DNA of 43,399 nt from a virus. Below, piece after piece: positions 5,469 through 30,958 of this stretch. The stretch covers positions 1 to 43,399 of the IMG/VR virus record IMGVR_UViG_3300036985_000788, one strand, 5' to 3'. The translations under genes were made by a program, and so were the position numbers. The stretch's first letter is position 1; each line of letters begins with the position of its first letter. The notes below the pieces were generated by a model that did not search any database, had not been told where the DNA came from, and worked only from the letters and a program-made list of their open reading frames with translations.

Positions 5469-5592
5469 AAAGTTTCCTTTCTGTGTAAATAAATTTGCGT
5501 TTAGTGTTGACAGCATAAACTAAATTATATTAATATACAACCACTGCCTCAAATTGAATTGTTCAGACCGAGGCTTACATAGGAGAAATAAA
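5469..5592. promoter_or_regulatory. Divergent promoter region
   Basis: Gene starts face away from each other at 5468 (minus) and 5593 (plus). Plus strand: TTGACA at 5507-5512 with a -10-like TTAATA/TAATAT 17-18 bases downstream (5530-5536). Minus strand: TTGTAT, 17 bases, TATGCT, overlapping the plus promoter. The AT-rich dyad ATATTAATAT is at its centre. This is the natural control point for the early genes and a likely target of the Cro-like protein. Confidence 0.65.
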
Positions 5593-6267
5593 ATGGCTAT
5601 TAGCCTTAAATCCACTTCTTCGCTACATACAAATGGCGTGAAGTTATTAGTGTACGGTCAGGCAGGAGCTGGGAAAACATCCCTGATTCCTACTTTACCT
5701 AAACCAATCGTACTATCTGCTGAAGGTGGTTTGTTATCCATCCAAGACGCAGATCTTCCATACGTTGAGATTTCCTCAATGGAAGAACTTAAAGAAGCCT
5801 ACGCATGGCTGACAGAATCTAAAGAAGGTTTGGAGTTTGAATCCGTTGCATTGGATTCTATTAGTGAGATTGCTGAGGTGGTGTTGAACTACGAGCGCAA
5901 ACTAACTAAAGATCCACGCGCTGCTTACGGTGCTATGCAAGAACAGATGTCTGACATTATTCGTGCCTTCCGTGACATTCCTAACCGAAATGTGTACATG
6001 AGTGCCAAATTGGAGAAGTCACAGGATGAAATGGGTAAGATAATGTATGCCCCATCGATGCCAGGCAATAAGACAGGTCAGCAGCTGCCGTATTTCTTTG
6101 ATGAGGTATTGGCATTACGAGTTGAGCGTGACGGAGATGGTAAGGTGCAACGTGCTTTGATGTGTGATTCTGATGGTTCTTGGTCTGCTAAAGACCGTAG
6201 CGGCAAGTTAGACGCATGGGAAGCTCCCGATTTGGGATTAATCATTAAAAAGATTGGAGGTAAGTGA
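5593..6267 (+). CDS. Sak4-like RecA-fold ATPase (AAA_24)
   Basis: A 224-aa single-domain RecA-like ATPase with Walker A GQAGAGKT (22-29) and Walker B SVALDS (about 84-89), the layout of the AAA_24/Sak4 family of phage single-strand annealing or recombinase proteins. It probably loads on ssDNA and promotes strand annealing in recombination-dependent replication. The DUF669 protein two genes downstream is its usual partner. The start at 5593 is chosen for the AGGAGA box; a frame extension to 5554 has none. It is the first gene of the rightward early operon. Confidence 0.85.
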   Translation: MAISLKSTSSLHTNGVKLLVYGQAGAGKTSLIPTLPKPIVLSAEGGLLSIQDADLPYVEISSMEELKEAYAWLTESKEGLEFESVALDSISEIAEVVLNYERKLTKDPRAAYGAMQEQMSDIIRAFRDIPNRNVYMSAKLEKSQDEMGKIMYAPSMPGNKTGQQLPYFFDEVLALRVERDGDGKVQRALMCDSDGSWSAKDRSGKLDAWEAPDLGLIIKKIGGK

Positions 6268-6470
6268 TGGATCAACTTACAGTTGCACAATTAACTTACC
6301 AACTTCTTTTAAGAAAATTATTAGATAAAAAAGAGATTGATAATCTTAGGACTGAAGAAGCATTTGATAATTATGCAAATAAAATTGGATTAAATGCTTA
6401 TTGTATGGTTAAAGTATTAACAAACTGGTCACCTACTTTAGAAGATTTGGAGCATAGTGATGATGAATAA
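6267..6470 (+). CDS. Small hypothetical protein in recombination operon
   Basis: A 67-aa protein, acidic at the C-terminus, with no recognised domain. The ATG at 6267 overlaps the TGA of the Sak4-like gene by one base, and GGAGG lies 6-11 bases upstream; a GTG at 6264 is an alternative start. It overlaps the next gene by about 11 bases, so it is translationally coupled on both sides. Confidence 0.6.
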   Translation: MDQLTVAQLTYQLLLRKLLDKKEIDNLRTEEAFDNYANKIGLNAYCMVKVLTNWSPTLEDLEHSDDE

Positions 6471-6852
6471 TTTATCTGACCTTTCAAAAGTATGGCTTGA
6501 GTTAAAAGAAGCCGAGCGTGTAGCCACTGAGCGCAGACGTGAAGTAGAGGATAAGCTAATGAGTTTGATTGGCATACCTGTATCTATGGAAGGCACTGAG
6601 AACGTCAAGCTAGATGATGGTTACGCAATTAAGATTGTAGGTCGTATGAACCGTAAGGTTGACACCGAGCAACTGCAAGACATAGCAGCTGCTAATGGGT
6701 TGACTGAACATCTACATGACCTATTCCGTTGGAAAGCTGAGATTAACTCAGCAGTATGGAAAGCAGCAAACGAAGCAATTACTAAACCATTGATGGCAGC
6801 CATTACAACTACACCAGGCAGACCATCATTCACTATTACAATTAAGGAATAA
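6460..6852 (+). CDS. Conserved phage protein between Sak4 and DUF669 genes
   Basis: About 130 aa. The N-terminal half has a charged helix (VWLELKEAERVATERRREVEDKL, about residues 9-31 in this frame, shown only in part), and the rest looks alpha/beta with YAIKIVGRMNRKVD. Proteins of this size and position recur beside Sak4 and DUF669 genes in phages, but I do not know a function. GGAG stands 8 bases before the ATG at 6460; GTG 6457 and ATG 6463 are also possible. It ends 4 bases before the DUF669 gene. Confidence 0.6.
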   Translation: MMNNLSDLSKVWLELKEAERVATERRREVEDKLMSLIGIPVSMEGTENVKLDDGYAIKIVGRMNRKVDTEQLQDIAAANGLTEHLHDLFRWKAEINSAVWKAANEAITKPLMAAITTTPGRPSFTITIKE

Positions 6853-6856
6853 TAAC

Positions 6857-7336
6857 ATGGCACAATTTAGCGAATCATTTGATATTAACTCACTACCTGA
6901 GCAGCAGAACGACTTTACCCCACTGCCTGAAGGTTGGTATAACGCAGTCATCAACAAGGCTGAGATCCGTGATACTAAAGACAAGACTGGTCAGTACGTT
7001 GCTGTAAGGTATGACGTTACAGGCCCGACACATCAAGGCCGCGTGGTATTTGGCAACATCAACATCAAAAACAAATCAACTGCTGCTGAGGAAATTGGCC
7101 GTCAGGCTCTAGGCTCTATCATGCGAGCAATTGGTTTATCTCGTGTTGATGACACTGACCAACTAATTGGTGGCGCATTACAAATTAAAGTTTCTATCCG
7201 CACTCAGGAAGGTTATGAGCCAACTAATGATGTACGTGGGTATAAAGCAATAGAAGGCGCATCAATGCCTAAAGTTGCCGCACCAGCACCAGCACAAGAC
7301 GAGGGCAAAGCAGCGCCACCATGGGCTAAGAAGTAA
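6857..7336 (+). CDS. DUF669 family ssDNA-binding-like protein
   Basis: A 159-aa protein with the DUF669 pattern: PLPEGWYNAVI near residue 24, then a beta-rich core (YVAVRYDVTGP, GRVVFGNINIKN) and a disordered Pro/Ala-rich tail ending PPWAKK. DUF669 proteins sit in phage recombination modules and are thought to take the role of SSB. The tail lacks the acidic tip of bacterial SSB, so it may not bind the same partners. The start follows a modest purine-rich stretch 4 bases after the previous stop. Confidence 0.85.
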   Translation: MAQFSESFDINSLPEQQNDFTPLPEGWYNAVINKAEIRDTKDKTGQYVAVRYDVTGPTHQGRVVFGNINIKNKSTAAEEIGRQALGSIMRAIGLSRVDDTDQLIGGALQIKVSIRTQEGYEPTNDVRGYKAIEGASMPKVAAPAPAQDEGKAAPPWAKK

Positions 7337-7345
7337 TTAGGTTTT

Positions 7346-7405
7346 GGGGATGGTGGTATCGGTAACGGCCACTAGCGGTGAGGCTAAGGGCATCCCCATT
7401 TTTTT
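7346..7405 (+). terminator. Hairpin plus T tract: attenuator/terminator or structured RNA
   Basis: TGGGGATG (7345-7352) pairs with CATCCCCA (7391-7398), followed by seven T (7399-7405). The 38-base interior is G/C-rich and can form further stems, for example GTGG with CCAC. It lies between the DUF669 gene and a small gene with a very strong GGAGG box. The outer stem and T run fit a terminator; the long structured interior is unusual for one and could be an attenuator or small RNA. Confidence 0.6.
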
Positions 7406-7419
7406 ACGGAGGATATATT

Positions 7420-7692
7420 ATGAAAACAGTTTATAAATCAAAATTACACACAAATTCTGATTATAAAAGTAATCAAAATAACAAGGCAATGATATATGGA
7501 AGCAAAGCATTATTGTTTAAAAAATTGTATGAACAATTATCTGAATTTTTAGGAAGTAATCTTGCCGTTAATAAATCTTTAAAGGCAGGACAAGGTTTTT
7601 ACTATGAATATTTATGTCAAGAAAGATTAACCCATGATATGGCAAATAGAATATTGAGCTTACACAAAAGGACAATTAAAAATGCAAGATAA
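7420..7692 (+). CDS. Small basic hypothetical protein
   Basis: A 90-aa basic protein (starts MKTVYKSKLH, ends RTIKNAR) with one predicted central helix bundle; the segment YEYLCQERLTHDMANRIL may be a helix-turn-helix-like stretch, but this is weak. The start at 7420 is fixed by ACGGAGGA 7-14 bases upstream, the clearest ribosome-binding site in the operon, just after the 7346-7405 hairpin. It overlaps the next small gene by 11 bases. Confidence 0.6.
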   Translation: MKTVYKSKLHTNSDYKSNQNNKAMIYGSKALLFKKLYEQLSEFLGSNLAVNKSLKAGQGFYYEYLCQERLTHDMANRILSLHKRTIKNAR

Positions 7693-7843
7693 ATACTATG
7701 AAAGACTAGGACATATTATTGATATTTACGCCAAGAGCGAAAAGTTCACAAACATTGAACTAGGTAAAGCAATTGAGAACTTTTACAAACTTTTGACTGA
7801 TGAAGAAATGCGTGACTTGAGAGAGGTTGAAAATAAAAAATGA
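7682..7843 (+). CDS. Small hypothetical protein (53 aa)
   Basis: ATG at 7682 to TGA at 7841-7843 encodes 53 helical, charged residues beginning MQDKYYERLGHIIDIYAK. It starts inside the end of the previous gene, and its stop overlaps the start of the nuclease gene as ATGA, the coupling pattern typical of this operon. No known domain. Confidence 0.6.
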   Translation: MQDKYYERLGHIIDIYAKSEKFTNIELGKAIENFYKLLTDEEMRDLREVENKK

Positions 7844-8844
7844 GTTTACTGCCAACCACCATTAATTTAATTAATAAGTTCCATGAAGATAAAAAAGAAA
7901 ATCCTAGGCCGCATCTAGGTTGCTCATTAATTGGGCATCCATGTGAACGGTGGTTATGGCTATCATTTCACTGGGCAGTCATACCTCAATTTGAAGGTAG
8001 ATTGCTTCGATTGTTTAGACGTGGCCACAATGAGGAAGCCAACATCCTACGTGACTTGCGTAGTATCGGTGTAGATGTCCGAGCCACTCAGAACAAGGTT
8101 GACTTTGGCAAACACTTTGGCGGATCCGTTGATGGCATTATCCACAGCGGCCTACCTGAATCACCAAACAAAGTTCACCTGGCTGAGTTCAAAACTCACT
8201 CCAAGAAATCATTTGATGACTTAGTTAAGAACGGCATGCAGAAATCTAAGCCCATGCACTACGCTCAGATGCAGGTTTACATGCTTGGCTTAAAGCTAGA
8301 CCGTGGCTTCTACTATGCCGTGTGTAAAGATAACGATGAGATTTACACTGAGCGCGTTAAGTTAGATAAAGACTTTGCCATTAAATTGGTAACTAAAGCA
8401 CATCGCATTACGATGATGGAAAGACTTCCCCCACCACTTACCACCGACCCAAGTTGGTACGAGTGTAAGTTTTGTGACGCACACGATTTCTGTCACGGCT
8501 CCAAGGCTATTAAAGAAACCAATTGTCGAACCTGCGCTCATGTGTCATCCAATGAGGACAGCACTTGGACATGTACACGCTACGATGCCACTATCCCATT
8601 AGACGCTCAATACAATGGCTGTGATGCACATGTAATTCACCCTGAGCTAGTGCCGTATGAGTTTAAGCCAGGTAAAGATGAGTGGCATGCAATTTATATT
8701 ATTAACAAGAAAGAAGTTCTCAATGGTGCCGATGGGTTTAAGTCTAGCGAGATACTAGCTAATCCTAACGAGTGCGCTGAACCTAGCGACTTTACTAAAG
8801 AACTTAGAGAAACTATGGGGGCTAAGATTATAAATGCAGACTAA
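7840..8844 (+). CDS. Cas4/RecB-like PD-(D/E)XK nuclease
   Basis: A 334-aa nuclease. The catalytic set is visible: GGSVDGI (Asp98), HLAEFKTH (Glu116, Lys118), and HYAQMQVYMLG (about 140-150), the C-terminal helix with Tyr/Gln of the family. Two Cys groups flank the core, Cys28/Cys35 and Cys209/Cys212/Cys218 (WYECKFCDAHDFCHG), as in Cas4/AddB-type nucleases that hold an iron-sulphur cluster. A second Cys-rich C-terminal part (CRTC, CTRYD, GCDAH) may bind zinc. It probably supplies ssDNA ends by resection for the Sak4-like protein. Its ATG overlaps the previous stop. It is not part of a CRISPR locus. Confidence 0.85.
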   Translation: MSLLPTTINLINKFHEDKKENPRPHLGCSLIGHPCERWLWLSFHWAVIPQFEGRLLRLFRRGHNEEANILRDLRSIGVDVRATQNKVDFGKHFGGSVDGIIHSGLPESPNKVHLAEFKTHSKKSFDDLVKNGMQKSKPMHYAQMQVYMLGLKLDRGFYYAVCKDNDEIYTERVKLDKDFAIKLVTKAHRITMMERLPPPLTTDPSWYECKFCDAHDFCHGSKAIKETNCRTCAHVSSNEDSTWTCTRYDATIPLDAQYNGCDAHVIHPELVPYEFKPGKDEWHAIYIINKKEVLNGADGFKSSEILANPNECAEPSDFTKELRETMGAKIINAD

Positions 8845-9064
8845 GATAGGTTCATTAATAGAATCAGTAATAAATATTGTTATTGGTTTTTCTATAAACT
8901 TTACTGGAAATATTTTTATTCTTCCTTTGTTTGGATTCAATGTGACAAACACACAAGCATTTAATATTGGCTTGATATTTACGGCAATTTCTTTAATTAG
9001 AAGTTATTTAATCAGACGCTGGTTTAATGGCATGGTACATAAATTAATTACAGGTGGAAAATGA
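8834..9064 (+). CDS. Small membrane protein, SLIE...RSYLIRRWFN family
   Basis: A 76-aa protein with two hydrophobic stretches (about 10-35 and 43-56) and conserved-looking ends: MQTKIGSLIESVINIVIGFS and FTAISLIRSYLIRRWFN. This resembles a small phage family that I believe is catalogued as DUF7220 (from memory, unchecked). The function is unknown. It overlaps the nuclease gene by 11 bases and the methyltransferase start by 4 (ATGA). Confidence 0.75.
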   Translation: MQTKIGSLIESVINIVIGFSINFTGNIFILPLFGFNVTNTQAFNIGLIFTAISLIRSYLIRRWFNGMVHKLITGGK

Positions 9065-10101
9065 ACTATTTAAGCGTATGTAGTGGAGTAGAAGCAGCAA
9101 CAGTTGCGTGGCATGACATGGGTTGGAATCCAGTTGGATTCTCAGAGATTGAGAAGTTCCCAAGCCAAGTATTAGCGCATCATTATCCAAATGTTACTAA
9201 TTTTGGTGACATGACAAATTATAAGGAGTGGAATATAAATGAACCAATCAACCTTCTTGTGGGAGGAACCCCTTGTCAATCTTTCTCAGTCGCAGGACTT
9301 AGAAAAGGACTTCAAGACCCTCGTGGAAACTTGGCACTCATCTATCTTGGAATTGCTGACCATTTTAAGCCAAAATGGATTGTGTGGGAAAACGTGCCAG
9401 GTGTCCTCAGTTCAGATGGAGGAAGGGATTTTGGTTCCTTCCTCGGGGCGTTGGCTGAACTCGGGTATGGGTTCGCCTACAGAGTGCTTGACGCTCAACA
9501 CTTCGGAGTTCCACAAAGACGCAAACGTGTCTTTGTTGTCGGATGTCTTGGAGATTGGAGAAGTGCTGCCTCAGTATTATTTGAGCGCGAAAGCATGTCA
9601 AGGGATACTAAGAAGGGCGGAAAAGAGGGGAAAGACCTTGCCAATTGCCTTACAAAAAGCCCTTCAAGCTACAGTAGCTACAATCCAGCAAGAAGTGAGG
9701 GAAACGCAGTAGTAGTTTATGAAACTCATCCTGCAGACAGTCGGGTAAAAGAAATGGGAGATACTTGTCAGACTGTTACTAGACGTTGGGGTACAGGTGG
9801 TGGAAATGTTCCTTTAGCTGTTGGATTTAATGTAAATGCTAGACCTGATGAAATGAAATTTGAAGATGAATTATCAGGCACATTAACTAGAAGTCAGCGT
9901 AGTGGTTTTATAAAAGAAATGCGTGTTAGAAGATTAACTCCACTTGAATGTGAGCGTTTGCAAGGATTCCCTGATAACTACACAGATATATTTGATAAAA
10001 CTCCTGATAACCACCGTTACAAAGCAATGGGCAATAGCATGGCTGTGCCTGTTATGAAATGGATTGGTGAAAGAATTAATGAGGTGGAAAATGCTTCGTG
10101 A
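9061..10101 (+). CDS. DNA (cytosine-5) methyltransferase
   Basis: A 346-aa C5 cytosine methyltransferase with ordered motifs: I SVCSGVEA (5-12, AdoMet binding), IV GGTPCQSFS (68-76, catalytic Cys72), VI WENVPG (109-114), VIII PQRRKRVFVV (151-160), a variable target-recognition part (about 165-300), IX LECERLQGFPD and X KAMGNSMAVPV near the C-terminus. No restriction partner is present, so it probably masks phage DNA from host restriction or alters its expression; the target sequence cannot be read. The start follows AGGTGGAAA. A second, dedicated gene lies inside residues 60-217 in another frame (9239-9712). Confidence 0.92.
   Translation: MNYLSVCSGVEAATVAWHDMGWNPVGFSEIEKFPSQVLAHHYPNVTNFGDMTNYKEWNINEPINLLVGGTPCQSFSVAGLRKGLQDPRGNLALIYLGIADHFKPKWIVWENVPGVLSSDGGRDFGSFLGALAELGYGFAYRVLDAQHFGVPQRRKRVFVVGCLGDWRSAASVLFERESMSRDTKKGGKEGKDLANCLTKSPSSYSSYNPARSEGNAVVVYETHPADSRVKEMGDTCQTVTRRWGTGGGNVPLAVGFNVNARPDEMKFEDELSGTLTRSQRSGFIKEMRVRRLTPLECERLQGFPDNYTDIFDKTPDNHRYKAMGNSMAVPVMKWIGERINEVENAS
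9239..9712 (+). CDS. Overprinted gene inside the methyltransferase gene
   Basis: A 157-aa ORF in a different frame, wholly inside the methyltransferase gene. It has its own AAGGAG box (9223-9228) 10 bases before ATG 9239. The protein has WHSSILELL, LVPSSGRWLNSGMGSPTECL, LSDVLE and a basic C-terminal part with YYLSAKACQGILRRAEKRGK. I recall this pattern from separately annotated uncharacterised phage proteins near methyltransferases, so I take it as a real gene. No enzyme motif is known to me; the C-terminal helix could bind nucleic acid. Both frames keep recognisable family features here, which argues against a chance shadow. Confidence 0.75.
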   Translation: MNQSTFLWEEPLVNLSQSQDLEKDFKTLVETWHSSILELLTILSQNGLCGKTCQVSSVQMEEGILVPSSGRWLNSGMGSPTECLTLNTSEFHKDANVSLLSDVLEIGEVLPQYYLSAKACQGILRRAEKRGKTLPIALQKALQATVATIQQEVRETQ

Positions 10102-11677
10102 ATACCAACAACGCTCAATAGATGAACTCTATGCCTGGCTATCCAATAACAAAGGCCATCCATGCCTAGTGCTGCCGACAGGATCAGGCAAGAGCCACAT
10201 TGTCGCTGCACTATGTAAGGATGCAGTACAGAACTGGCCTGAAACTCGTGTGTTAATGCTCACTCACGTTAAGGAGCTGATTGAGCAGAACGCAGAGAAG
10301 ATGCGCCTCCACTGGCCAAATGCACCGATGGGCATATACTCAGCCAGTATCGGCAAGCGTGAACTAGGTGAGGCCATTACATTTGCTGGCATCCAGTCTG
10401 TGCGTAACCGATCACATGAGATTGGTCACGTTGACTTGATTTTGATTGACGAATGTCACCTTGTGTCACATAAAGATGAGGGTGGCTATCGCACATTGAT
10501 TAAAGAGTTGATTGAGATTAATCCTATGCTGCGTGTCATTGGTCTGTCTGCTACGCCATACCGATTAGGCCATGGCTTGATTACGGATAAGCCAGCTTTG
10601 TTTGATGCTCTAATTAGGCCTGTTGACATTGAGGAGTTGATATATAAGAAATACCTTGTTCGATTGAACTCAAAGGTAACTGATAAACAGTTATCCACAG
10701 AAGGTGTCCATAAGCGAGGTGGTGAGTATATTGAATCAGAGCTACAGGCAGCTATGGATAACGATGCCAATAACTATGCAGTGGTTGATGAAGTTATTGC
10801 ACGAGCAGGGGATAGGAAAGCATGGCTATTCTTTTGTGCTGGTGTTGAGCATGCTTATCATGTTAGAGATGTGTTGCTCAAAAGAAACATTGTGGCAGAA
10901 TGTATTACAGGTAATACAAGTAAGTCAGAACGCAAGCGTATTTTAGATGAGTATAAAGCTGGAAAGATTAAGGCGCTCACTAACTGCGATGTGCTAACAA
11001 CTGGGTTTGATTACCCTGACATTGACTTGATTGCCATGCTTCGACCAACCTTATCGGCTAGTCTTTACGTGCAGATGGCAGGGCGTGGGCTACGACCTAA
11101 GAGCCATACCGATCACTGCTTGGTATTAGACTTTGCTGGTGTGGTTAGAACACACGGCCCAATCACCAACGTGAACATTGAGGATAAGTCTAAGAAGCAT
11201 GGAGAAGGCTCAGGAGAAGCTCCAGTTAAGATGTGCGAGCATTGCCATGAGATTGTACATATAAGTGTTCCAGTATGCCCTGGCTGTGGAACGGAATTTC
11301 CTAAAGAAGAAAAAGAACCATTGAAACTTCGTAATGATGACATTATGGGAGAAGGAGGTACCGAGTTTGATGTCAATTATTGGGAATGGTCAAAGCATGT
11401 GAGCAAGACGAGTGGGATAGACATGCTGAAGGTGACGTATTATGGTGGTTTATCTGATAAGCCAGTGACAGAATACCTATGCGTAAAGCATGATGGATGG
11501 GCAGGTCAAAAGGCATTGCAATCGCTGGTTATACTTGCTAAGAAGTCTGGTGCATACCTTATGCCACATAGCACCTTGCAGGATATATGTGATGCAATGA
11601 ACGAATCCAACTGCCCAAAGGCTATTGAGTTTAAGCAAGATGGTAAATACGCACGAGTAATTGACAGGAGATTTTAA
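10091..11677 (+). CDS. SF2 DEAD/DEAH-type helicase with zinc finger
   Basis: A 528-aa superfamily 2 helicase: Q-like REYQQ at the N-terminus, Walker A PTGSGKS (29-35), DECH box (120-123), SAT motif (153-155), TTGFDYPD (303-310) and motif VI QMAGRGLRP (328-336). A C4 zinc finger follows (Cys382, 385, 396, 399). It resembles the phage UvsW/RecG-like remodelling helicases that process forks and recombination intermediates. The ATG at 10091 has GAGGTGG upstream and overlaps the methyltransferase end by 11 bases. It shares one base with the VRR-NUC gene. Confidence 0.88.
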   Translation: MLREYQQRSIDELYAWLSNNKGHPCLVLPTGSGKSHIVAALCKDAVQNWPETRVLMLTHVKELIEQNAEKMRLHWPNAPMGIYSASIGKRELGEAITFAGIQSVRNRSHEIGHVDLILIDECHLVSHKDEGGYRTLIKELIEINPMLRVIGLSATPYRLGHGLITDKPALFDALIRPVDIEELIYKKYLVRLNSKVTDKQLSTEGVHKRGGEYIESELQAAMDNDANNYAVVDEVIARAGDRKAWLFFCAGVEHAYHVRDVLLKRNIVAECITGNTSKSERKRILDEYKAGKIKALTNCDVLTTGFDYPDIDLIAMLRPTLSASLYVQMAGRGLRPKSHTDHCLVLDFAGVVRTHGPITNVNIEDKSKKHGEGSGEAPVKMCEHCHEIVHISVPVCPGCGTEFPKEEKEPLKLRNDDIMGEGGTEFDVNYWEWSKHVSKTSGIDMLKVTYYGGLSDKPVTEYLCVKHDGWAGQKALQSLVILAKKSGAYLMPHSTLQDICDAMNESNCPKAIEFKQDGKYARVIDRRF

Positions 11678-12027
11678 TGGTAGCTGAAAAGGTTAAGTCG
11701 GAGCATTTAGAGCAGGTTGAGTTTATACAATGGATGAGGCGTACTCACCCACAGCACCGAGTATTTGCCATTGGCAACGGTGGATTAAGAAACAAAGTAG
11801 TGGCCATGAACATGAAGGCAGAAGGTGTCACCGCTGGAGTACCTGACCTTATGATACCTAGTCTTAAGACATTTATTGAGATGAAGCGGACTAAAGGTGG
11901 AACCGCATCGCCAGAGCAATTGGACTGGATAATCTACTTAAACGGATCTGGCTATTATGCACAAGTTTGCAAAGGTAAAGATGAAGCTGTTGATTTTATC
12001 AAATATGTGTTGACAGACATAAAGTAA
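11677..12027 (+). CDS. VRR-NUC domain nuclease
   Basis: A 116-aa stand-alone VRR-NUC protein: EHLEQVEFIQW (about 9-19), GVPDLMIPS (about 50-58) and FIEMKR (about 63-68) give the Glu, Asp and Glu-x-Lys of the PD-(D/E)XK site, then SPEQLDW. Such small phage proteins act as structure-specific nucleases, probably on branched DNA. It starts at the last base of the helicase stop, so helicase and nuclease are probably made together to resolve joint molecules. Confidence 0.88.
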   Translation: MVAEKVKSEHLEQVEFIQWMRRTHPQHRVFAIGNGGLRNKVVAMNMKAEGVTAGVPDLMIPSLKTFIEMKRTKGGTASPEQLDWIIYLNGSGYYAQVCKGKDEAVDFIKYVLTDIK

Positions 12028-12820: not shown

Positions 12821-13242
12821 CTAAAGACGAAGCATTAAAGATGGCTTATGATTGGGTAAATGAATATGCCCCTCCTGAAGTGGTGCAAGCCTGTAAAGAA
12901 GCATTAGAACAGCCATTAACAAGGGATTGGAAAGAAACAATAGACGAACGCATTGCTAAAGATGATGGATTTAAGCAAGCCCTAACACAGCCCGCACAAG
13001 AACCTGTAAAACAAAAAGTAAAAGTGTTATATGAGAAAAATGGAATACAAACTTGTGAAATTTTACCTACACCATTATGGCAAGGAAACAAAGAATTTGT
13101 TGGATTAAGTGATGATGAGATAGCAGTAATTATTGGAAATGGGGCATTTTATGAGTTAGGGGATTTAGAATTTGCCCGTGCAATTGAACAAGAGCTAAAG
13201 ACCAAAAATGGTTTTAGCGCATTAAAGGAAAAGAACACATGA
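12817..13242 (+). CDS. Hypothetical phage protein
   Basis: A 141-aa acidic protein. An N-terminal helical part (residues 1-60) with EALEQPL is followed by a linker with PAQEPVKQ, and the C-terminal half holds WQGNKEFVGLSDDEIAVII. EALEQP-like repeats and the last motif occur in short phage proteins of unknown role. Its ATG overlaps the previous stop by 4 bases and its stop overlaps the next ATG. No enzyme motif. Confidence 0.65.
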   Translation: MTKDEALKMAYDWVNEYAPPEVVQACKEALEQPLTRDWKETIDERIAKDDGFKQALTQPAQEPVKQKVKVLYEKNGIQTCEILPTPLWQGNKEFVGLSDDEIAVIIGNGAFYELGDLEFARAIEQELKTKNGFSALKEKNT

Positions 13243-13358
13243 CTAAAGCCGAGATGGATGAACTGCGATTCTTATTAATACTAGCTAAGATGAAAGAGAA
13301 CGATAAAGTCGCGGATGTTTTGGCGGATGTATTACTTAAATCTACACAATCAGTTTAG
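13239..13358 (+). CDS. Small hypothetical protein (39 aa)
   Basis: ATG at 13239 to TAG at 13356-13358 encodes 39 helical residues starting MTKAEMDELRFLLILAKMKE. It begins with the same MTK start as its neighbour and has an ATGA overlap with it. A short inverted repeat AGTTTA/TAAACT (13352-13367) sits on its stop codon and may be a weak terminator between this gene and the convergent pqqA. Confidence 0.5.
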   Translation: MTKAEMDELRFLLILAKMKENDKVADVLADVLLKSTQSV

Positions 13359-13395
13359 AGTTAAACTAAAAGTGTAGATATATAGAAAGTATATA

Positions 13396-13467
13396 CTATT
13401 TGTTCATTACGTACATTGTAACTTCAAAGCCAAAACGCATTTCAGTAGCTGCTGGTGTAGTCCACAT
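13396..13467 (-). CDS. pqqA: PqqA, precursor peptide of pyrroloquinoline quinone
   Basis: A 23-codon ORF on the minus strand, ATG 13467 to TAG 13396. The peptide begins MWTTPAATEM and ends FGFEVTMYVMNK. It has the PqqA hallmarks: MW-x-x-P start, 23-residue length, and the invariant Glu15 and Tyr19 in E-V-T-M-Y, which PqqE joins and which become the PQQ ring system. AAGGA lies 8 bases before the ATG. It stands alone on the strand opposite the early operon. No pqqB-E are in the window, so it would feed the host pathway. PQQ is the cofactor of methanol and glucose dehydrogenases. The sequence looks most like PqqA of methylotrophic betaproteobacteria (from memory). The reading frame was translated base by base. 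Confidence 0.87.
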   Translation of the reverse strand: MWTTPAATEMRFGFEVTMYVMNK

Positions 13468-13488
13468 GGTAGTTGTCCTTAACGAATA

Positions 13489-13506
13489 ACAAGCAAAATT
13501 GCTTGT
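13489..13506. promoter_or_regulatory. Perfect inverted repeat upstream of pqqA
   Basis: ACAAGCAAAATTGCTTGT is a perfect 18-base dyad between the pqqA ribosome-binding site and the small gene at 13557. It fits an operator for either direction; it lacks a T tract, so a terminator is less likely. A weak minus-strand promoter (TTGTGT, 16 bases, TATTAC) may precede it. Confidence 0.55.
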
Positions 13507-13556
13507 ATGTAATATTGTTCTTTTTATTAAACACAAACAATACGGAAAACCATTAA

Positions 13557-13691
13557 ATGAAAAAGTTAAAAATTAAGATACTTCGATACTTTCATCAACC
13601 AAGCAGAGCTAAAATTAGCCGTGACATCAGAAGTTACAATAAAGATGGCATCTCAACAAATTGGATACACGAAGGCAGAAGATTAGGATGA
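13557..13691 (+). CDS. Small basic hypothetical protein (44 aa)
   Basis: ATG at 13557 to TGA at 13689-13691 encodes 44 residues, strongly basic, starting MKKLKIKILRYFHQPSRAKI. It has GGAAAA upstream and overlaps the next ATG as ATGA. Basic and short; it may bind nucleic acid, but no domain is recognised. It restarts the rightward small-gene series after the pqqA interval. Confidence 0.5.
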   Translation: MKKLKIKILRYFHQPSRAKISRDIRSYNKDGISTNWIHEGRRLG

Positions 13692-14473: not shown

Positions 14474-14653
14474 TTAGTTCATTAATGGTTTATTTAGGTC
14501 AAAGCATTTCATGCTAAGGCCATCACCGCTAAACTCCAAATCATAGTTGGATAGTTCTAAAGTAACGGTTTCTTGTTCGTAATCTATAACTATTCCAACA
14601 ATGGTTTGACCCATCAGTGTTTGAGCCATCTCTTTAGCTTCAACCTGTTTCAT
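14474..14653 (-). CDS. Small hypothetical protein (59 aa)
   Basis: ATG at 14653 to TAA at 14474-14476 encodes 59 residues, acidic and beta-rich (starts MKQVEAKEMAQTLMGQTIVG, later VTLELSNYDLEF). Its start overlaps the metallophosphoesterase stop as ATGA, so it is probably translated with that enzyme. Its stop abuts the convergent rightward gene. No domain recognised. Confidence 0.6.
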   Translation of the reverse strand: MKQVEAKEMAQTLMGQTIVGIVIDYEQETVTLELSNYDLEFSGDGLSMKCFDLNKPLMN

Positions 14654-15801
14654 ATCATTCCAATGTCACAAGTGTGGCGTTCAATTTCGCCATACTCTTT
14701 ATGAAGAACAATGGCACACATATCACGACCAGCTCGGTAGCCTTGACCTTGGTGCCAGGCATCACGAGCAGCTAGTGTCCTGAAATACTCCACCGTACCG
14801 CCCTGATACTCTTTAACGTCACGATGGTGTACGTGGCCGACATACCAGTAGCGATACTTAGAACGACCCCATTCTTCAGGTATATCAGATGCCATAATAG
14901 ACATCATATCTTTACCCTTCACCGTATCGCCATGGGTAGAGCCTATCAATACTTTGCCAAACGGATAGTACCAAGACACAGCTGGTGAGAGATCCACCTC
15001 CATGCGCTTCTCTTTATGGAAGTAGCAACTAATCATAAGCGCCAAAGCATAGGATGAGTGACCATCGTGGTTGCCTTTATTGATTCTAAAGATAACCTTC
15101 TGATGCTTCTCAAGCAGCCGTTGCAAGCAATATATCATGGCTCGCAAACCTATCTGCTGCACTTTAGCCCAGCGACCATCTACATCGAGCTGGTGTCCTG
15201 AGTTGGTGACGTTCTTTTGGTTGTCCGCGTGGAACATGTCACCGAGATTTAGTAACAAGGCTGTGTGAGTGTTTGGTGAGCTTGCTATGAGCCTGTCTAT
15301 GGCACCGCATGTTAGCTTCTCTGCAATGTCTAAATCAAAGTCATCCCCTGCGTCTTTCGCCCAGGCATACAAACCAAAGTGCGGATCGCCCATAGGGATA
15401 ACAGTCAACGTATCAGTTGGCTTTAATTTTGGAGGTGGTGATAGCGGAGCAAGACCTTTAATATCTTCTGCCAGATTGATAACGAAGTCTTTAACAACCT
15501 GTTCTAATTGAGCTTGATCTAAAGATGACTTAACCCATTGGCCTGATGGCTTCCCATCTTTATTATAGTAAGTGCTGACGCCCTTAACTAGGTAGCCTGG
15601 GGGAACTGGTCTAGTCATGTCATGCTCAGGTGATAAGCCTTGCAATGCGGCTTTAGCTTTCAAGCTCCTAACAGCCACATCAACTACCGTGGCAGTTACA
15701 CCAAAAAACTTTGCTGCTGAACGATTAGAACCCAGTTCACAAGACTTAGCGTAATAATCCCACTGCTTTTGTGTTGCGAACTGCTTTAATTCTTCTATCA
15801 T
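14650..15801 (-). CDS. Calcineurin-like metallophosphoesterase with N-terminal HTH-like region
   Basis: A 383-aa protein. Metal-binding motifs are in order: GDPHFG (138-143), GDMFHAD (187-193), GNHDGH (243-248), HGD (290-292) and GHVHH (322-326), the dinuclear site of calcineurin-like phosphoesterases. The first 60 residues (WDYYAKSCELGSNRSAAKFFGV) look like a small helical, terminase- or sigma-like HTH. The substrate is unknown; phage members may act on nucleic acid ends or cyclic nucleotides. It overlaps the previous gene by 4 bases at its start. Confidence 0.85.
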   Translation of the reverse strand: MIEELKQFATQKQWDYYAKSCELGSNRSAAKFFGVTATVVDVAVRSLKAKAALQGLSPEHDMTRPVPPGYLVKGVSTYYNKDGKPSGQWVKSSLDQAQLEQVVKDFVINLAEDIKGLAPLSPPPKLKPTDTLTVIPMGDPHFGLYAWAKDAGDDFDLDIAEKLTCGAIDRLIASSPNTHTALLLNLGDMFHADNQKNVTNSGHQLDVDGRWAKVQQIGLRAMIYCLQRLLEKHQKVIFRINKGNHDGHSSYALALMISCYFHKEKRMEVDLSPAVSWYYPFGKVLIGSTHGDTVKGKDMMSIMASDIPEEWGRSKYRYWYVGHVHHRDVKEYQGGTVEYFRTLAARDAWHQGQGYRAGRDMCAIVLHKEYGEIERHTCDIGMI

Positions 15802-16046
15802 TTTCTAATTAATACCACTGCCGCTTCAATAGCCAAGTTTAAAAGATTAGGAGCAGTCTTAATTATTTGCTCTTTTATGTTACCTTCTAACTCAGTTAAT
15901 GCAGACTTAACTGCCATCTTTTTGGCAGCGCCAGGGATGTCATTATCCATTTGTGACTGAACTAATGATTTAATTATTTCAAATAACTTGGCATCGATTA
16001 AACGATTGATTACGAAAGACAACAAACCTAATAGGAAACTAGACAT
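15798..16046 (-). CDS. Small hydrophobic-ended protein in lysis region
   Basis: An 82-aa protein with hydrophobic ends (SSFLLGLLSFVINRLI near the N-terminus, LLNLAIEAAVVLIRK at the C-terminus) around an amphipathic middle with DNDIPGAAKKMAVKSAL. Similar proteins sit beside holin genes in phages, but I cannot name a function; an accessory holin or virion role are both possible. The end of the gene overlaps the phosphoesterase start by 4 bases. Confidence 0.55.
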   Translation of the reverse strand: MSSFLLGLLSFVINRLIDAKLFEIIKSLVQSQMDNDIPGAAKKMAVKSALTELEGNIKEQIIKTAPNLLNLAIEAAVVLIRK

Positions 16047-16047
16047 A

Positions 16048-16269
16048 TTATTGCTCCTTACATTCTAATGTAAAATAAATGAGTTCTATCTTATACCAAT
16101 CAGCCACCGATAATTCTTTTTGCGGATTCACTTCCAGTTGGATGTGGGGCTGACACACCAATTTTTTTGGTGGATGCGATAGTGATAGCTGGATTGACGA
16201 ACAACCCGACAATGACAACAATAGAAGTACCAATTGAGAGAATATCTGCATCCGACAATGGTAGTTCAT
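16048..16269 (-). CDS. Small lipoprotein, outer-spanin candidate
   Basis: From ATG 16269 the protein begins MNYHCRMQIFSQLVLLLLSLSGC: a basic n-region, a hydrophobic core and the lipobox LSGC, so it should be lipid-anchored with Cys at about residue 23. The mature part (about 50 aa) has two more Cys and a Pro-Pro pair. The frame stays open upstream to 16365, but no start there has a signal peptide. Up to 170 bases overlap the holin candidate in another frame, like the nested Rz1 genes. Ribosome-binding sites are weak, and an alternative ATG is at 16251. Confidence 0.55.
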   Translation of the reverse strand: MNYHCRMQIFSQLVLLLLSLSGCSSIQLSLSHPPKKLVCQPHIQLEVNPQKELSVADWYKIELIYFTLECKEQ

Positions 16270-16414
16270 AGCCAAACGCTTTAGCCAATGCCACGAGCGC
16301 AGCCAATAACCCTGCGATGACTGAGCCAGTAATTTGACCTTTCTTCCATGCTTCAGGGTTGGCAACTTCTCTACCTTTGCGAAATACAGAAAATAAAGCT
16401 ATTAATTTATTCAT
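16100..16414 (-). CDS. Holin-like membrane protein
   Basis: A 104-aa protein with two predicted spans: about 28-46 (GSVIAGLLAALVALAKAFGY) and about 59-80 (SIGTSIVVIVGLFVNPAITIA), and a short polar tail. The N-terminal segment VANPEAWKKGQITGS is a pattern I recall from phage proteins near endolysins. It sits directly downstream of the M15 endolysin (overlap of 4 bases), the usual holin position, so it probably forms the lesion that lets the endolysin out. Direct proof is lacking. Confidence 0.65.
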   Translation of the reverse strand: MNKLIALFSVFRKGREVANPEAWKKGQITGSVIAGLLAALVALAKAFGYELPLSDADILSIGTSIVVIVGLFVNPAITIASTKKIGVSAPHPTGSESAKRIIGG

Positions 16415-16827
16415 AGTGTCTTTCCTTTTTGAAAATCAGCTAACGATAATCCGCCAGTGTATTGCATGTGGGCGGTTTCTTTTATCTTTCCAGACCATCT
16501 TCCAGCCCACTCAAGACCTATTGATTCGCCTATCCTACCACACTTTGCGTAAATAACATCGTTATCCCACAATGGCTTACCGTGAAGCATAGGCACCCAA
16601 TCGAAGGCAACTCTGTAATTATGAAAGGATTGACCGCCTTTTGCATTGGTTACGATCCTGCCTTTTGCAGTTCTTCCCTGGGCGTAGATAAAGTTTTGAG
16701 ATTCTATATCTCGGTATGTAGAATAAATAAGAATGTCAAACCCTGCGGCTAAACATTCTTTTTTAAATCTTTCTGCTAGTGCTTTTACTTTTGGGTGTAA
16801 CTCATCAAGCGAACGACTGTTAATCAT
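16411..16827 (-). CDS. M15 (VanY-like) peptidase endolysin
   Basis: A 138-aa peptidase of the L-alanyl-D-glutamate endopeptidase type. Zinc ligands: SFHNYRVAFDW (His69, Asp76) and AHMQY (His119). IYSTYRDIESQ and GRWSG fit the family fold. It cleaves the peptide stem of peptidoglycan during lysis. It has no signal peptide, so it needs a holin; a holin candidate follows at once. The start overlaps the previous stop by 4 bases. Confidence 0.9.
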   Translation of the reverse strand: MINSRSLDELHPKVKALAERFKKECLAAGFDILIYSTYRDIESQNFIYAQGRTAKGRIVTNAKGGQSFHNYRVAFDWVPMLHGKPLWDNDVIYAKCGRIGESIGLEWAGRWSGKIKETAHMQYTGGLSLADFQKGKTL

Positions 16828-17057
16828 TTATCTGCCTTGTTATCTAACCTGTCAAACAACTTGTTTAACATTTCTTTAACTTCACGTATATCTTGGCGGT
16901 AATCATCACGAGCCACATAATCTTTTGGCAACTCCTCACGTAGTTTAGCCAAATCAGATTTAAGTTCTTTAACTGCCGACCACATTTCACGTAAGAACCA
17001 ACCCAAGACAAGTGATGCTGATGATAAGAGAATGTTTAAGATTGATTGATTGTCCAT
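16824..17057 (-). CDS. Membrane-anchored coiled-coil protein, inner-spanin-like
   Basis: A 77-aa protein: an N-terminal span (ILNILLSSASLVLGWFL, about 5-21), then a charged coiled coil with DDYRQDIREVKEMLNKLFDRL. This topology fits an inner spanin or an XhlA-like lysis protein. Together with the lipoprotein candidate at 16048-16269 it could make a two-part spanin, but here it stands before the endolysin rather than after the holin, which is unusual. Confidence 0.55.
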   Translation of the reverse strand: MDNQSILNILLSSASLVLGWFLREMWSAVKELKSDLAKLREELPKDYVARDDYRQDIREVKEMLNKLFDRLDNKADK

Positions 17058-17078
17058 GATGAAATACCTAAAAGATTG

Positions 17079-17300
17079 TTAGCAGGAAATGGCTTTTAAC
17101 TCATCAAGAGTTGTTATTGTATCAACGGCTTTAGTAATGTCACGCAACCTTTGCTTTTCAGCAATGATCTCGGCTGTGTCACCGCCAGATTCTAAAGCTC
17201 TTTGAAATGCCACATCTTGTTCTTGAAGTAATGGCGCACGTTCTGCACGAAGCCTTGCCTTGGTAATTTCTTTAGCTTTGTCTATATTAATAGTAATCAT
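17079..17300 (-). CDS. Tail-fibre assembly-like small protein
   Basis: A 73-aa charged helical protein (ITINIDKAKEITKARLRAERAPLLQEQDVAFQRALE, given in part) with TTLDELKAI near the end. The AKEI...LRAERAPLLxxxD pattern occurs in small phage proteins downstream of tail fibres, probably chaperones. The start at 17300 has GGGAG 8 bases upstream. Its ATG overlaps the previous stop, so the two small genes are coupled. Confidence 0.65.
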   Translation of the reverse strand: MITINIDKAKEITKARLRAERAPLLQEQDVAFQRALESGGDTAEIIAEKQRLRDITKAVDTITTLDELKAISC

Positions 17301-17491
17301 GCTGCATACTCCCATGCTTCACGGAATGTTCTGTCAGACGGAATATCTGCAGCATCTACAATTTGGAACTCTGCACCAGCAGGTACATCTTTTGCTGCTA
17401 ATTCCTCAATGGTGTGTGACTCTAACCACTCGGCAGTAGGGATCAATACTGCTACCCCACCGTTATCTGTTTTGTATATGATTCTTTGCAT
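17297..17491 (-). CDS. Small conserved phage protein after tail fibres
   Basis: A 64-aa protein: MQRIIYKTDNGGVAVLIPTAE, then a helix (SHTIEELAAKDVPAG) and DIPSDRTFREAWEY. This motif set recurs in short phage proteins placed after tail-fibre genes and paired with the next gene. The role is not known; fibre chaperone or modifier is an inference from position. Confidence 0.65.
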   Translation of the reverse strand: MQRIIYKTDNGGVAVLIPTAEWLESHTIEELAAKDVPAGAEFQIVDAADIPSDRTFREAWEYAA

Positions 17492-17499
17492 AATTTATC

Positions 17500-18033
17500 C
17501 TATTCGTACATTATGTTTACTGATCCAGCATCAAAAAATTGTGAGCCAATTACTGTTGTGATACTTAGTCTATCTATAACTCCGTTAGATGTAACACTAC
17601 CGCCACCATTACAGCCTATTAAACTTCCTGCCGAAAAACCTATAACAGATGTTGCAACATAAACATTTCCACCAAGATTAGTTATTGTTACCATCCCATT
17701 TCTAGCAGTTGTTGCACTTGAACCAGCATTTGCAATATCAACAGGAAAGCCATTTGTTACTACAGCTCCCTCTAAAGAGTTTGTATTGTATGTAATCGCT
17801 CCACAAGCATATCCAGTTGTTACTAAAGTAGTAAGTCCAATTTGAATACGCAAAGGTGAAGTACCATTTGTAGATAACCCTTGAAACATTACAGTAATAC
17901 GCTTAACCCAGTTTGGTATGCCTGTAAAATCTATACTTGTTTGCCCAGATGCTGATATAGATGTTGCATGTACTAATGATCCAGTAGTCCTTCCTGTAAC
18001 CGTATTTGCTGTTCCGTCTATTGTAACTGCCAT
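17500..18033 (-). CDS. Tail fibre tip/adhesin protein
   Basis: A 177-aa beta-rich Gly/Thr/Ser protein starting MAVTIDGTANTVTG; SASGQTSIDFTGIPNWVKRITVMF matches the C-terminal tip domain of many phage fibre proteins. It ends in a beta strand. It is one of three short fibre-like genes (17500, 18044, 18443) downstream of the long fibre at 18887, so they may be alternative or stacked tip subunits for receptor binding. Confidence 0.75.
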   Translation of the reverse strand: MAVTIDGTANTVTGRTTGSLVHATSISASGQTSIDFTGIPNWVKRITVMFQGLSTNGTSPLRIQIGLTTLVTTGYACGAITYNTNSLEGAVVTNGFPVDIANAGSSATTARNGMVTITNLGGNVYVATSVIGFSAGSLIGCNGGGSVTSNGVIDRLSITTVIGSQFFDAGSVNIMYE

Positions 18034-18043
18034 AATTTATCCT

Positions 18044-18433
18044 TTAATTACCTATTGCAAACCAGTTGGCGGTAAAAGTAAGTGAATCTGTATTTCTTAT
18101 TACCAATTGTGTAGCTGACTTAGATTCTATTTTAGTAGCAAAGAAGTCTGTTGCACCTGCTTGTTCTATTGTTACTTGTGCTGATAATGTGCCAGTTGGG
18201 AAAGCTAAAGGATAAGTAACAGTTGCCGTTCCTGCTGGTACTGAAATAGTACCCCATTGCATTATTAATCCATTAGAAAATCTTACATACCCAGGATTCG
18301 CTATAGACCTTGCAACATCCACTAAAGCATTGCCTGTTGCTACTGGCATTGTGATTGTTGATGAACCTGCTGCCGCTGGTGCGGACAGTGTAATCGAACC
18401 GCTTGTATCGCCACTAATAACTACTGAAGCCAT
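18044..18433 (-). CDS. Short tail fibre protein, gp53-like C-terminal domain
   Basis: A 129-aa protein. N-terminal SVVISGDTSGSITLSAPAAAGSSTITMP is a shaft-attachment repeat seen in marine and freshwater phages, and YVRFSNGLIMQWGTIS...YPLAFPTG matches the putative tail-fibre gp53-like C-terminal domain. Probably a receptor-binding tip subunit. It follows the 18443 gene after 9 bases. Confidence 0.75.
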   Translation of the reverse strand: MASVVISGDTSGSITLSAPAAAGSSTITMPVATGNALVDVARSIANPGYVRFSNGLIMQWGTISVPAGTATVTYPLAFPTGTLSAQVTIEQAGATDFFATKIESKSATQLVIRNTDSLTFTANWFAIGN

Positions 18434-18442
18434 GATTTATCC

Positions 18443-18877
18443 TTATCTGAAAATTGCTACATTGGTATACTCTGAATCTGCCACATTACCAGCATCAGTA
18501 CAAACAAAAACTCTTTGTGATGATACCGTGTTAGCAACAGTAGTAGCATTTTGACGAGTGCTATTTATTGAAGCACCATTAACACCAGTCATACTATTAA
18601 CTGTACCAAGGCAAGCATAATTTATATCTGGCATAGCATTAGAAAAGTTTATTGAGTAATTGCCAGTTCCATTATCACCAACAGAACTTACATTAAATGA
18701 AGACCTTATTGCTATTGTACCTGTACCGTTAAAGTTTACCCAAGCACGACAGAATGTACCAATCTCTGCACCATTAACATCTGTGATTGTAGGGGGAGTT
18801 AAAGCTACTCCGTTATCAATGACAAGCTGACTTCCTACACCTGCCTCTAATCTATCTGCTATAACCGTTCCTGCCAT
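18443..18877 (-). CDS. Short tail fibre protein
   Basis: A 144-aa protein with MAGTVIADRLEAGVGS at the start and GTFCRAWVNFNGTGTIAIRSSFNVSS in the middle, a recurring tip domain of phage fibres. Gly, Asn, Ser and Thr rich, no enzyme motif. It lies 9 bases after the long fibre gene in the same transcript and probably completes the distal fibre. Confidence 0.75.
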   Translation of the reverse strand: MAGTVIADRLEAGVGSQLVIDNGVALTPPTITDVNGAEIGTFCRAWVNFNGTGTIAIRSSFNVSSVGDNGTGNYSINFSNAMPDINYACLGTVNSMTGVNGASINSTRQNATTVANTVSSQRVFVCTDAGNVADSEYTNVAIFR

Positions 18878-18886
18878 GATTAATCC

Positions 18887-20392
18887 TTATAAAATAACCC
18901 ATCTGCTGCCAGTGGGTATGGTAATTATAACACCACTATCTATTGTAATATCACCAGTTGACATGGCTGACTTACCAGATGTAATAGTATAACTTGTTGT
19001 AACTATCTGACTATTCTCATAGAAAATATCATCATTACTGCCGCCTTTAGCGCCACCACCTATTGAACCCCAAACACTACCATTATACCCTTCAAATGAT
19101 AAGGCCGATGTATTGTATCTTACCATGCCTTGCACAGCAGTAGGTCTTTGTGCAGTAGTACCAACTGGAGCAACAATAGCACCAGTAGCAGACGTTCCAA
19201 CAAAGCCTGATGCTGTTATGGTTGTTGCTGTAGCGTTGCCTATATTTGGCGTTGTTAAAACTGGTGATGTAGAGAATACAATGTTTGTACTTGTTGTACC
19301 AGTAGCGCCACTAGCAGTATAACCAGTTATATTATTAAATGCACCTATACCTGCTGTATCTGTATTGGTACCACCGCTGGATACAGGTAGAATACCTGAA
19401 ACATGACCAGTTAATGTAACTTTACCATAAGTAGGGGCAACGCCTACACCACCTGATAGTAGCGCATTACCAATAGATACATCAGGTACCTTAGTCAAAG
19501 TGTTAGTTGATCCGCCAACTAATATATCACCAATTGCATAAGTATTATTTCCTGTACCGCCATTGGTTGCTGGCAATGTACCTGATACGTGAGTATCAAG
19601 ACCAATCTTGCCGTAACTAGGCGCAGTACCAACACCGCCAGAGATAAGCGCATTACCAGTAGCGACATCGGCTAACTTAGATAATGCGGTAGAGGTAGAA
19701 GCAAATACTAAATCACCAACAGCATAAGACGATTGACCAGTGCCACCAGCAGTAGCAGGTAGTGTACCAGTAGTTAAAGCTGATGTAGAGGTAGCGTAGA
19801 GAGCGCCACCAGAAGTAAATGTTGTTAAGTTAGTACCACCGTTAGCTGTAGGTAGAGTTCCAGATACATGCGTAGCAAGGCCTATCTTTCCGTAAGCTGG
19901 GGCAACACCTACGCCACCAGAGATTAATGCGTTACCTGTAGCAACGTCAGGCAATTTTGACAATGCAGTTGTAGTGGAGGCATAGACAATATCACCGACT
20001 GCGTATGAGCTTTGCCCTGTACCGCCAGAGGCAGCTGGAATTGCTACATTGAATGTAGGGGTGGCATTTACTGTTAGTGTGTCGGCAGAGGCATCACCAA
20101 GCGTTGTATTGCCAGTTGAGCTTAATGCTGTAAATGCGCCTGTGTTTGGCGTGGTGGCACCGACAGTACCATTGATGTTAATGTCATATCGAGTAAAATC
20201 AACCCAAGCAGTGCCGTTCCATCTTTGATTTTTAAATGTTGTACTATTCCAACGAATAGCATTGGTTGGTAGATTAGTAGGCGTAGTTAATGCTGAATCT
20301 AATCCTAATGTTAAGTCATCAAAGCGAGCATCTATTTCAGCAGTATAGTTTGCATACGTGCTGGTATTGACTGGTTTACTATGGTCTGCCAT
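18887..20392 (-). CDS. Long tail fibre protein with repeats
   Basis: A 501-aa fibre. The N-terminal attachment part has RFDDLTLGLDSALTTPTNLPTNAIRWNS; three to four repeats follow (about residues 119-345) built from SGGTGQSSYAVGDI...ATGNALISGGVG...YGKIGL-THVSGTLP units; the C-terminal part ends SAMSTGDITIDSGVIITIP-like with GSRWVIL. The same C-terminal tag closes the 660-aa fibre at 33359, so the two share a module. It probably forms a trimeric side or tip fibre for host recognition, beside the tail-tip protein. Confidence 0.85.
   Translation of the reverse strand: MADHSKPVNTSTYANYTAEIDARFDDLTLGLDSALTTPTNLPTNAIRWNSTTFKNQRWNGTAWVDFTRYDININGTVGATTPNTGAFTALSSTGNTTLGDASADTLTVNATPTFNVAIPAASGGTGQSSYAVGDIVYASTTTALSKLPDVATGNALISGGVGVAPAYGKIGLATHVSGTLPTANGGTNLTTFTSGGALYATSTSALTTGTLPATAGGTGQSSYAVGDLVFASTSTALSKLADVATGNALISGGVGTAPSYGKIGLDTHVSGTLPATNGGTGNNTYAIGDILVGGSTNTLTKVPDVSIGNALLSGGVGVAPTYGKVTLTGHVSGILPVSSGGTNTDTAGIGAFNNITGYTASGATGTTSTNIVFSTSPVLTTPNIGNATATTITASGFVGTSATGAIVAPVGTTAQRPTAVQGMVRYNTSALSFEGYNGSVWGSIGGGAKGGSNDDIFYENSQIVTTSYTITSGKSAMSTGDITIDSGVIITIPTGSRWVIL
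19360..20038 (-). repeat. Internal coding repeats of the long fibre
   Basis: Imperfect in-frame repeats of about 60-95 codons, each with a GGTG(Q/N)xxYA(V/I)GD start and an (A/S)TGNAL(I/L)SGGVG core, with one shorter unit between. They build the fibre shaft and are not a CRISPR array: the units are long, in frame and without spacers. Confidence 0.75.
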
Positions 20393-20394
20393 CT

Positions 20395-26469: not shown

Positions 26470-26984
26470 TAATATAATCCTGGGAAATAAGACGGTGTAA
26501 AAGTATGGGCAGGGAACGGTTCAATTGCTAAAGATTCTACATTCAAATCTGCCACTATGCTATTAGCATTATACGTTATTCCGCTCATTAAAAACCCTGG
26601 GAATGAAATTTCTAATACATCAGGTGTCCTAGTTAATACAAGTTCTATGCTCACGTTCAATGCAGTAGTAGCCAACCGTATTGTCGGTGTAAGGTACCTA
26701 GTTACATCGTTCAATGTAATTTGGCATCGAGGCGCTGCGTCAGCTTCTTCTGACGGCAATGTGATTTGAAACGGCAAGAACACATAATCATTACCACGGC
26801 TTTTGATGCCATACAACACATCATCGGCTGTAGCGCTAAGACGTTGCGTATAGTTATCAGCCAATCTTATTGGGGTAGCAATACCTGCGCCAGTGATGGT
26901 TAATAATACCGCTAGGGTATCGTCACCATCAGGGCTAAACATAGCCCTCAAAGCAGCTGGTGAAAATGAACTTAATCTACTCAT
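26469..26984 (-). CDS. DUF1833 family tail protein
   Basis: A 171-aa protein: LAVLLTITGAGIATPIRLADN near the N-terminus and the beta-rich remainder fit DUF1833, a family found between tape measure and tail-tip genes. Probably a minor tail protein that joins tail tube and tip, in place of lambda M/L. It shares one base with the tail-tip gene and overlaps the next upstream gene by 4. Confidence 0.82.
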   Translation of the reverse strand: MSRLSSFSPAALRAMFSPDGDDTLAVLLTITGAGIATPIRLADNYTQRLSATADDVLYGIKSRGNDYVFLPFQITLPSEEADAAPRCQITLNDVTRYLTPTIRLATTALNVSIELVLTRTPDVLEISFPGFLMSGITYNANSIVADLNVESLAIEPFPAHTFTPSYFPGLY

Positions 26985-27346: not shown

Positions 27347-27348
27347 AA

Positions 27349-30105: not shown

Positions 30106-30114
30106 AGTGAACCT

Positions 30115-30908: not shown

Positions 30909-30921
30909 AATACTCTCCGTT

Positions 30922-30958
30922 AAAAAAACTCCGTAAAAAGATGAGGCGCGTGACGGAG
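30922..30958 (-). terminator. Terminator between tail tube and G genes
   Basis: Read on the minus strand: CTCCGT (complement of 30953-30958), an 18-base loop, ACGGAG (complement of 30929-30934), then seven T. Termination here would reduce G/GT expression relative to the abundant tube protein. Confidence 0.7.

Follow-up and report, generated by a model that had tools for sequence, protein, structure and literature searches.

Small unannotated pqqA genes in phages of methylotrophs as a probable extra template for PQQ synthesis during infection

The closest described system is the Lake Baikal population VP_266, a set of T4-like methylophage contigs in which PqqA is encoded beside a viral methanol dehydrogenase (Coutinho et al. 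2020, PMC7678222); virus-borne pqqA, pqqE and pqqD have also been listed from reservoir sediments (PMC13188868). The first-pass annotation of the locus studied here had stated that no phage pqqA was described, and both reports contradict it. No mention of a viral pqqA was found in the text of the searchable reports on Melnitz, MEP301, Venkman and MEP401/402. As a concept, phage pqqA is already known; what is new here is its breadth, its autonomy and its systematic non-annotation. Coastal and fresh waters are rich in methylophages, and in the methylotrophic cells that they infect the PQQ-dependent methanol dehydrogenase is the entry point for carbon and the main one for energy. PQQ synthesis consumes one PqqA for each PQQ made. 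Within PqqA, a Glu and a Tyr are cross-linked by PqqE/PqqD, as cited in PMC7678222 and PMC9851590.

The window, by which we mean the whole 43,399-nucleotide stretch analysed, carries on its minus strand a gene of 23 codons plus a TAG stop (13396..13467; ATG at 13467, stop ending at 13396) that encodes the peptide MWTTPAATEMRFGFEVTMYVMNK. An AAGGA ribosome-binding site, read directly from the sequence, lies 8 bases upstream of the ATG (13476..13480, minus strand). A longer in-frame start would be a TTG; the start that recurs elsewhere is the ATG with its ribosome-binding site. The peptide matched Pfam PF08042 (PqqA) with E = 3e-10 and 40.3 bits, covering all 19 model positions, and NCBIfam TIGR02107 with E = 5.6e-10 and 38.8 bits, scoring about twice the curated cut-off of each (21.1 and 20 bits); a search of PHROGs assigned it to no family. 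PqqA peptides have about 22-24 residues with a Glu and a Tyr four apart near the C-terminus, and the 23-residue window peptide has this form: Glu15 and Tyr19 are spaced as in the Klebsiella-type peptide MWKKPAFIDMRLGLEVTLYISNR and are the predicted residues of the PqqE cross-link. A chance ORF is ruled out by the profile scores together with recurrence in other phages. The short frame, its AAGGA, the spacing of Glu15 and Tyr19 and the PqqA identity had all been proposed in the first-pass annotation, and each of them held up, the same 23 residues being found in Methylophilaceae chromosomes as well. On sequence grounds we consider 13396-13467 confirmed as a genuine phage-borne pqqA.

The window reads as the genome of a tailed phage, because terminase, portal, capsid and tail genes are all present. 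A replication and recombination block on the plus strand (5554..12027) encodes a Sak4-like annealing protein, an ssDNA-binding protein, a Cas4-type exonuclease, a DNA methyltransferase, a helicase and a Holliday-junction resolvase-like protein, and pqqA lies just past it on the opposite strand. Beyond follow, on the minus strand (14650..43345), a DNA-repair exonuclease, a lysis gene (VanY-like peptidase) and a tail and head block with tape measure, major capsid protein, prohead protease, portal and terminase genes. The window genes that were scanned included none of pqqB-E, so that pqqA stands alone. A contaminating host fragment is ruled out both for the window, whose whole length is phage, and for the isolate genomes described below. 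Elsewhere in the structural block, a tail-fibre-like region (19368-20027) contains internal repeats, seen as multiple self-similar matches against the related genomes G001 and G007.

The gene sits in a variable cassette (13331..13554) made up of pqqA, its leader and a hairpin. On one side a 39-aa ORF (13239..13358, plus strand), whose start region is conserved in G007, converges on pqqA; on the other a 44-aa ORF (13557..13691, plus strand) diverges from it, its start forming the other cassette edge. Between the converging genes lies the hairpin ATCTACAC...GTGTAGAT (13340..13379), with a folding energy of -19.1 kcal/mol and a z of -5.5 (0/200 shuffles as stable). It likely ends both transcription units, though its T-run is short. 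A second, small hairpin in the pqqA 5' leader, ACAAGCA-ATTT-TGCTTGT (13489..13506, minus strand), is not significantly stable (z -1.1); several relatives, L096 and L102 among them, have the same sequence. The pqqA stop is touched by a near-palindrome, GTATATACTTTCTATATAT (13378..13396), which is the sole exact match in the window, also flanks pqqA in G001 and, in G007, lies at the junction where pqqA is lacking. The near-palindrome form GTATATACNTTNTATATAC, which adjoins pqqA, is matched approximately at two places in the window, where 0.15 would be expected. In other phages it also turns up in some of the pqqA leaders, and could be an operator or a recombination junction.

To place the cassette among close relatives of the window, we collected 25 records by terminase similarity. 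Genome G001 (terminase 96%) has MWTSPAATEMRFGFEVTMYVMNK at the same site as the window pqqA, and G003 (89%) encodes a peptide identical to the window's. No pqqA was found in G007 (97%, 42 kb), where the same site was compared, or in G004 (88%). The alignment of the window with G007 stops at 13330 and restarts at 13555; where the window has its 224-bp pqqA cassette, G007 has about 98 bp. In total 2/25 terminase-related records carry pqqA and 23/25 do not, most of the rest being distant. Because the gene is missing from the G007 site, from G004 and from those 23 records, it is, by comparative genomics, an accessory cassette that is dispensable in the window clade. The first-pass annotation had counted absence or frame disruption in close relatives against the gene. 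Absence was indeed found, in G007 and G004, and no frame-disrupted copy was seen; this pattern is that of an accessory gene, not of a spurious one.

We then asked which cultured phages carry the gene. A tblastn search of the window peptide against 50,697 phage records matched 12 of them, comprising nine methylophage isolates, one spring-water phage contig and two entries named as 'Acinetobacter phage'. The nine are all the isolate genomes that the search returned (P19250A, MEP301, Venkman, MEP401, MEP402 and four Melnitz); taxonomy holds the further names MEP431-434 and EXVC038S, and MEP431-434 were not among the matches. P19250A encodes the same 23 residues as the window (100%), contrary to the statement that it carries none of the reported auxiliary genes (Coutinho et al. 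2020, PMC7678222). One of the two 'Acinetobacter phage MD-2021a' records, CAKLQF020000010, appears to be bacterial DNA, with a chromosomal-type pqqBCDE operon and ppk, and was rejected; the second record filed under that name is CAKLQH020000055.

In every phage genome examined the gene lacks a pqqA annotation, as the first-pass annotation had anticipated for a gene this short. Five of the examined phages have nothing annotated at pqqA. In a Melnitz genome (MZ577095, 74848-74943) and in MW202481 (2067-2195) a 'hypothetical protein' has been called over pqqA on the opposite strand, and these antisense proteins look like spurious gene calls. Few proteins are common to P19250A, Venkman, MEP301, MEP402, Melnitz (represented by the fetched part) and the window. 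When ORFs of at least 60 aa were compared at E 1e-3, the sole ORF matching all five other genomes was a 60-aa ORF of MEP402, which is the antisense frame of pqqA. At this threshold pqqA is therefore the one sequence common to all six phages.

To assess its spread in the environment, IMG/VR was scanned with the pattern MRFGFEVTMY, which returned at least 120 stretches. The guess in the first-pass annotation that the gene might be widespread is thus borne out by nine isolates and at least 120 IMG/VR loci. The frame was intact in 120/120 loci listed, no broken copies were seen among the viral matches listed, and nearly all viral copies have AAGGA or AGGAG ahead of the ATG. Since a sub-variant accounting for 15/120 of the listed matches gave at least 120 when searched alone, extrapolation puts the number of viral copies at probably about 1,000 or more. 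Viral origin is supported by relatives of isolate-phage or window proteins, which 96 of the 120 listed loci encode, and by a Terminase_6N match (one terminase type only) in 18 of 41 longer pqqA-bearing contigs. None of these 41 contigs encodes a PqqE above cut-off. One pqqA-bearing viral contig (IMGVR_UViG_3300025120_009955, 72 kb) also encodes a PQQ-dependent alcohol dehydrogenase (34049-35731), like the Baikal methylophages.

The 115 viral copies that could be aligned comprise 104 distinct DNA sequences and only 39 peptides. In pooled estimates from related sequences, codons beyond the search pattern had a pN/pS of 0.27, and the constrained codons Trp2, Pro5, Glu9, Asn22 and Lys23 one of 0.04. 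By these measures viral pqqA is under purifying selection. While the first scan had fixed codons 15 and 19, a second scan left both free; it gave no new loci, with Glu and Tyr in every match listed. Glu15 and Tyr19 were invariant in all 300 viral matches fetched, 120 of them from the free-position scan.

A scan with the Klebsiella-type motif MRLGLEVT, bearing on a pan-phage pqqA in other hosts, returned 13 contigs that look like prophage ends abutting host pqqA (L376-L388; e.g. L380:12908-12957 and L388:421-470), and a pan-phage pqqA was rejected. Two of these contigs were examined, and near the contig end they also have the N-terminus of a TonB-receptor-like protein, possibly PqqU. Prophages may integrate repeatedly at a site adjoining the pqq locus. 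As far as these scans reach, phage pqqA is specific to methylotroph phages.

Expression signals were sought in the viral leaders. TATAAT is concentrated about 60 and about 40 bases before the viral pqqA ATG (20 and 17 matches in 116 leaders, against 1-4 in other bins), and in 39/117 viral copies a terminator with a perfect stem lies within 100 bases. The TATAAT position bins are the only promoter signal that stands out, a generic promoter score being barely above that of shuffles (41% vs 33%), and no consensus sigma-70 promoter was found in the window's pqqA leader. Autonomous transcription is plausible for many viral copies and unproven for the window copy.

We propose that the phage pqqA encodes a functional PqqA that would serve as an extra template and sustain PQQ and methanol dehydrogenase during infection, a reading to which we give a probability of roughly three in four. 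The PqqD/PqqE and downstream enzymes of an infected Methylophilaceae cell would turn the phage PqqA into PQQ. Because PqqA is consumed one for one, and the infected host is expected to transcribe and translate less, a template expressed by the phage could keep PQQ and methanol dehydrogenase supplied until lysis. The phage would bring only PqqA because the enzymes are catalytic and already in the host. PqqE is present in 9/10 Methylophilaceae genomes; the window's host is presumably one of the Methylophilaceae, through which PqqE would be available to process the phage peptide. We infer that the gene is expressed in infection, that its product is processed by host PqqE, that PQQ is raised and that the phage benefits. 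The gene also has two features of an auxiliary metabolic gene, being a host-type gene in genuine phage genomes (the window and nine isolates) and under selection (the pN/pS of 0.27 and its retention in dissimilar lineages).

Host genome contigs were scanned with the same pattern with VMN, and matches were titled Methylotenera, Methylophilus, Methylopumilus, OM43 and related or unclassified proteobacterial MAGs. The window peptide is the commonest chromosomal PqqA of the Methylophilaceae (69/129 copies), and the nearest host DNA, a copy in a Methylotenera MAG, is identical at 67 of 69 positions. Ten host genomes carried 1-12 pqqA copies each against at most two pqqE, so that the hosts themselves multiply the consumed part. 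Methylotenera mobilis 13 has twelve copies over cut-off, scattered on one chromosome, and two pqqE. Five pqqA copies are reported in a Hyphomicrobium strain (PMC9851590), a paper that also cites multiple pqqA genes in Methylovorus (Ge et al. 2015).

The scattered host copies suggest another reading, in which pqqA is a passive hitchhiker that moves between phages and chromosomes with little benefit to the phage, perhaps explaining those copies. It would fit the phage genes that are 69/69 identical to host copies, the viral leader that is 91% identical to a host-contig leader, and the patchy presence near the window. However, purifying selection with many synonymous differences argues against mere passage, as do the presence of the gene in all nine isolates returned, which belong to several dissimilar lineages, and the lack of broken copies among the matches seen. 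We therefore regard passive carriage as unlikely.

The first-pass annotation had also offered competition with the host peptide, whereby PqqA would act as a decoy, tying up host PqqE/PqqD and reducing or diverting the synthesis of PQQ. In favour of this, PqqA can be made in excess of the enzymes, and the viral gene does stand alone. A decoy, however, would be expected to lose one cross-link residue; the phage peptide equals the host's own PqqA and both residues are kept in all copies, which makes this role very improbable. We give slightly less credence still to another use of PQQ, in which the cofactor would leave the cell and bind to a PqqU-type receptor, preventing superinfection, or would supply a different PQQ enzyme. 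In E. coli, PqqU-bound PQQ blocks a PqqU-targeting phage (PMC12124388), but methylophages are not known to use PqqU, and the pqqA contig with an alcohol dehydrogenase points to methanol oxidation. Finally, the near-palindrome and hairpins around pqqA might mark a DNA or RNA element (a recombination site, attachment site or regulatory RNA) with an incidental reading frame, which we dismiss because variation is concentrated at synonymous sites with residues kept, and because the flanks vary between phages while frame and ribosome-binding site are always intact.

A supply of functional PqqA template thus remains our preferred reading. We also lean towards a broader one, that stand-alone pqqA is a near-universal, unannotated accessory gene of Methylophilaceae phages, gained repeatedly by unrelated lineages as PQQ precursor limits methanol oxidation in infected cells. 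If siphovirus-, podovirus- and T4-like phages all retain this 23-codon gene for a substrate but none for an enzyme, then the supply of PQQ precursor probably forms a bottleneck in infected cells. Widespread as it is, this metabolic gene is hidden by standard annotation, and pqqA is probably a standard means by which viruses of methylotrophs keep host methanol metabolism running.

Compared with VP_266 from Lake Baikal, the window likewise encodes a phage PqqA, and for VP_266 too the proposal was an aid to methanol oxidation. There, however, the gene was seen in one population and beside methanol dehydrogenase, whereas here it occurs alone in small (about 35-43 kb), dissimilar phages that include P19250A. 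The chromosomal pqqA of Methylophilaceae (Methylotenera, Methylophilus, OM43) encodes the identical peptide, differs from the window gene at two of 69 positions in the nearest MAG copy and is kept by the hosts in scattered copies; the phage copy, by contrast, has no link to pqqBCDE, and sister phages differ in whether they carry it. As in the multi-copy pqqA of methylotrophs, what would be raised is the dosage of a consumed substrate and not of enzymes, there on the chromosome and here in the virus. In cyanophages, psbA provides a phage copy of a short-lived or consumed part of host energy metabolism, D1, and is found in many dissimilar phages. Phage pqqA resembles it in its spread over dissimilar phages and differs in that PqqA is a ribosomal peptide substrate rather than an enzyme or structural subunit.
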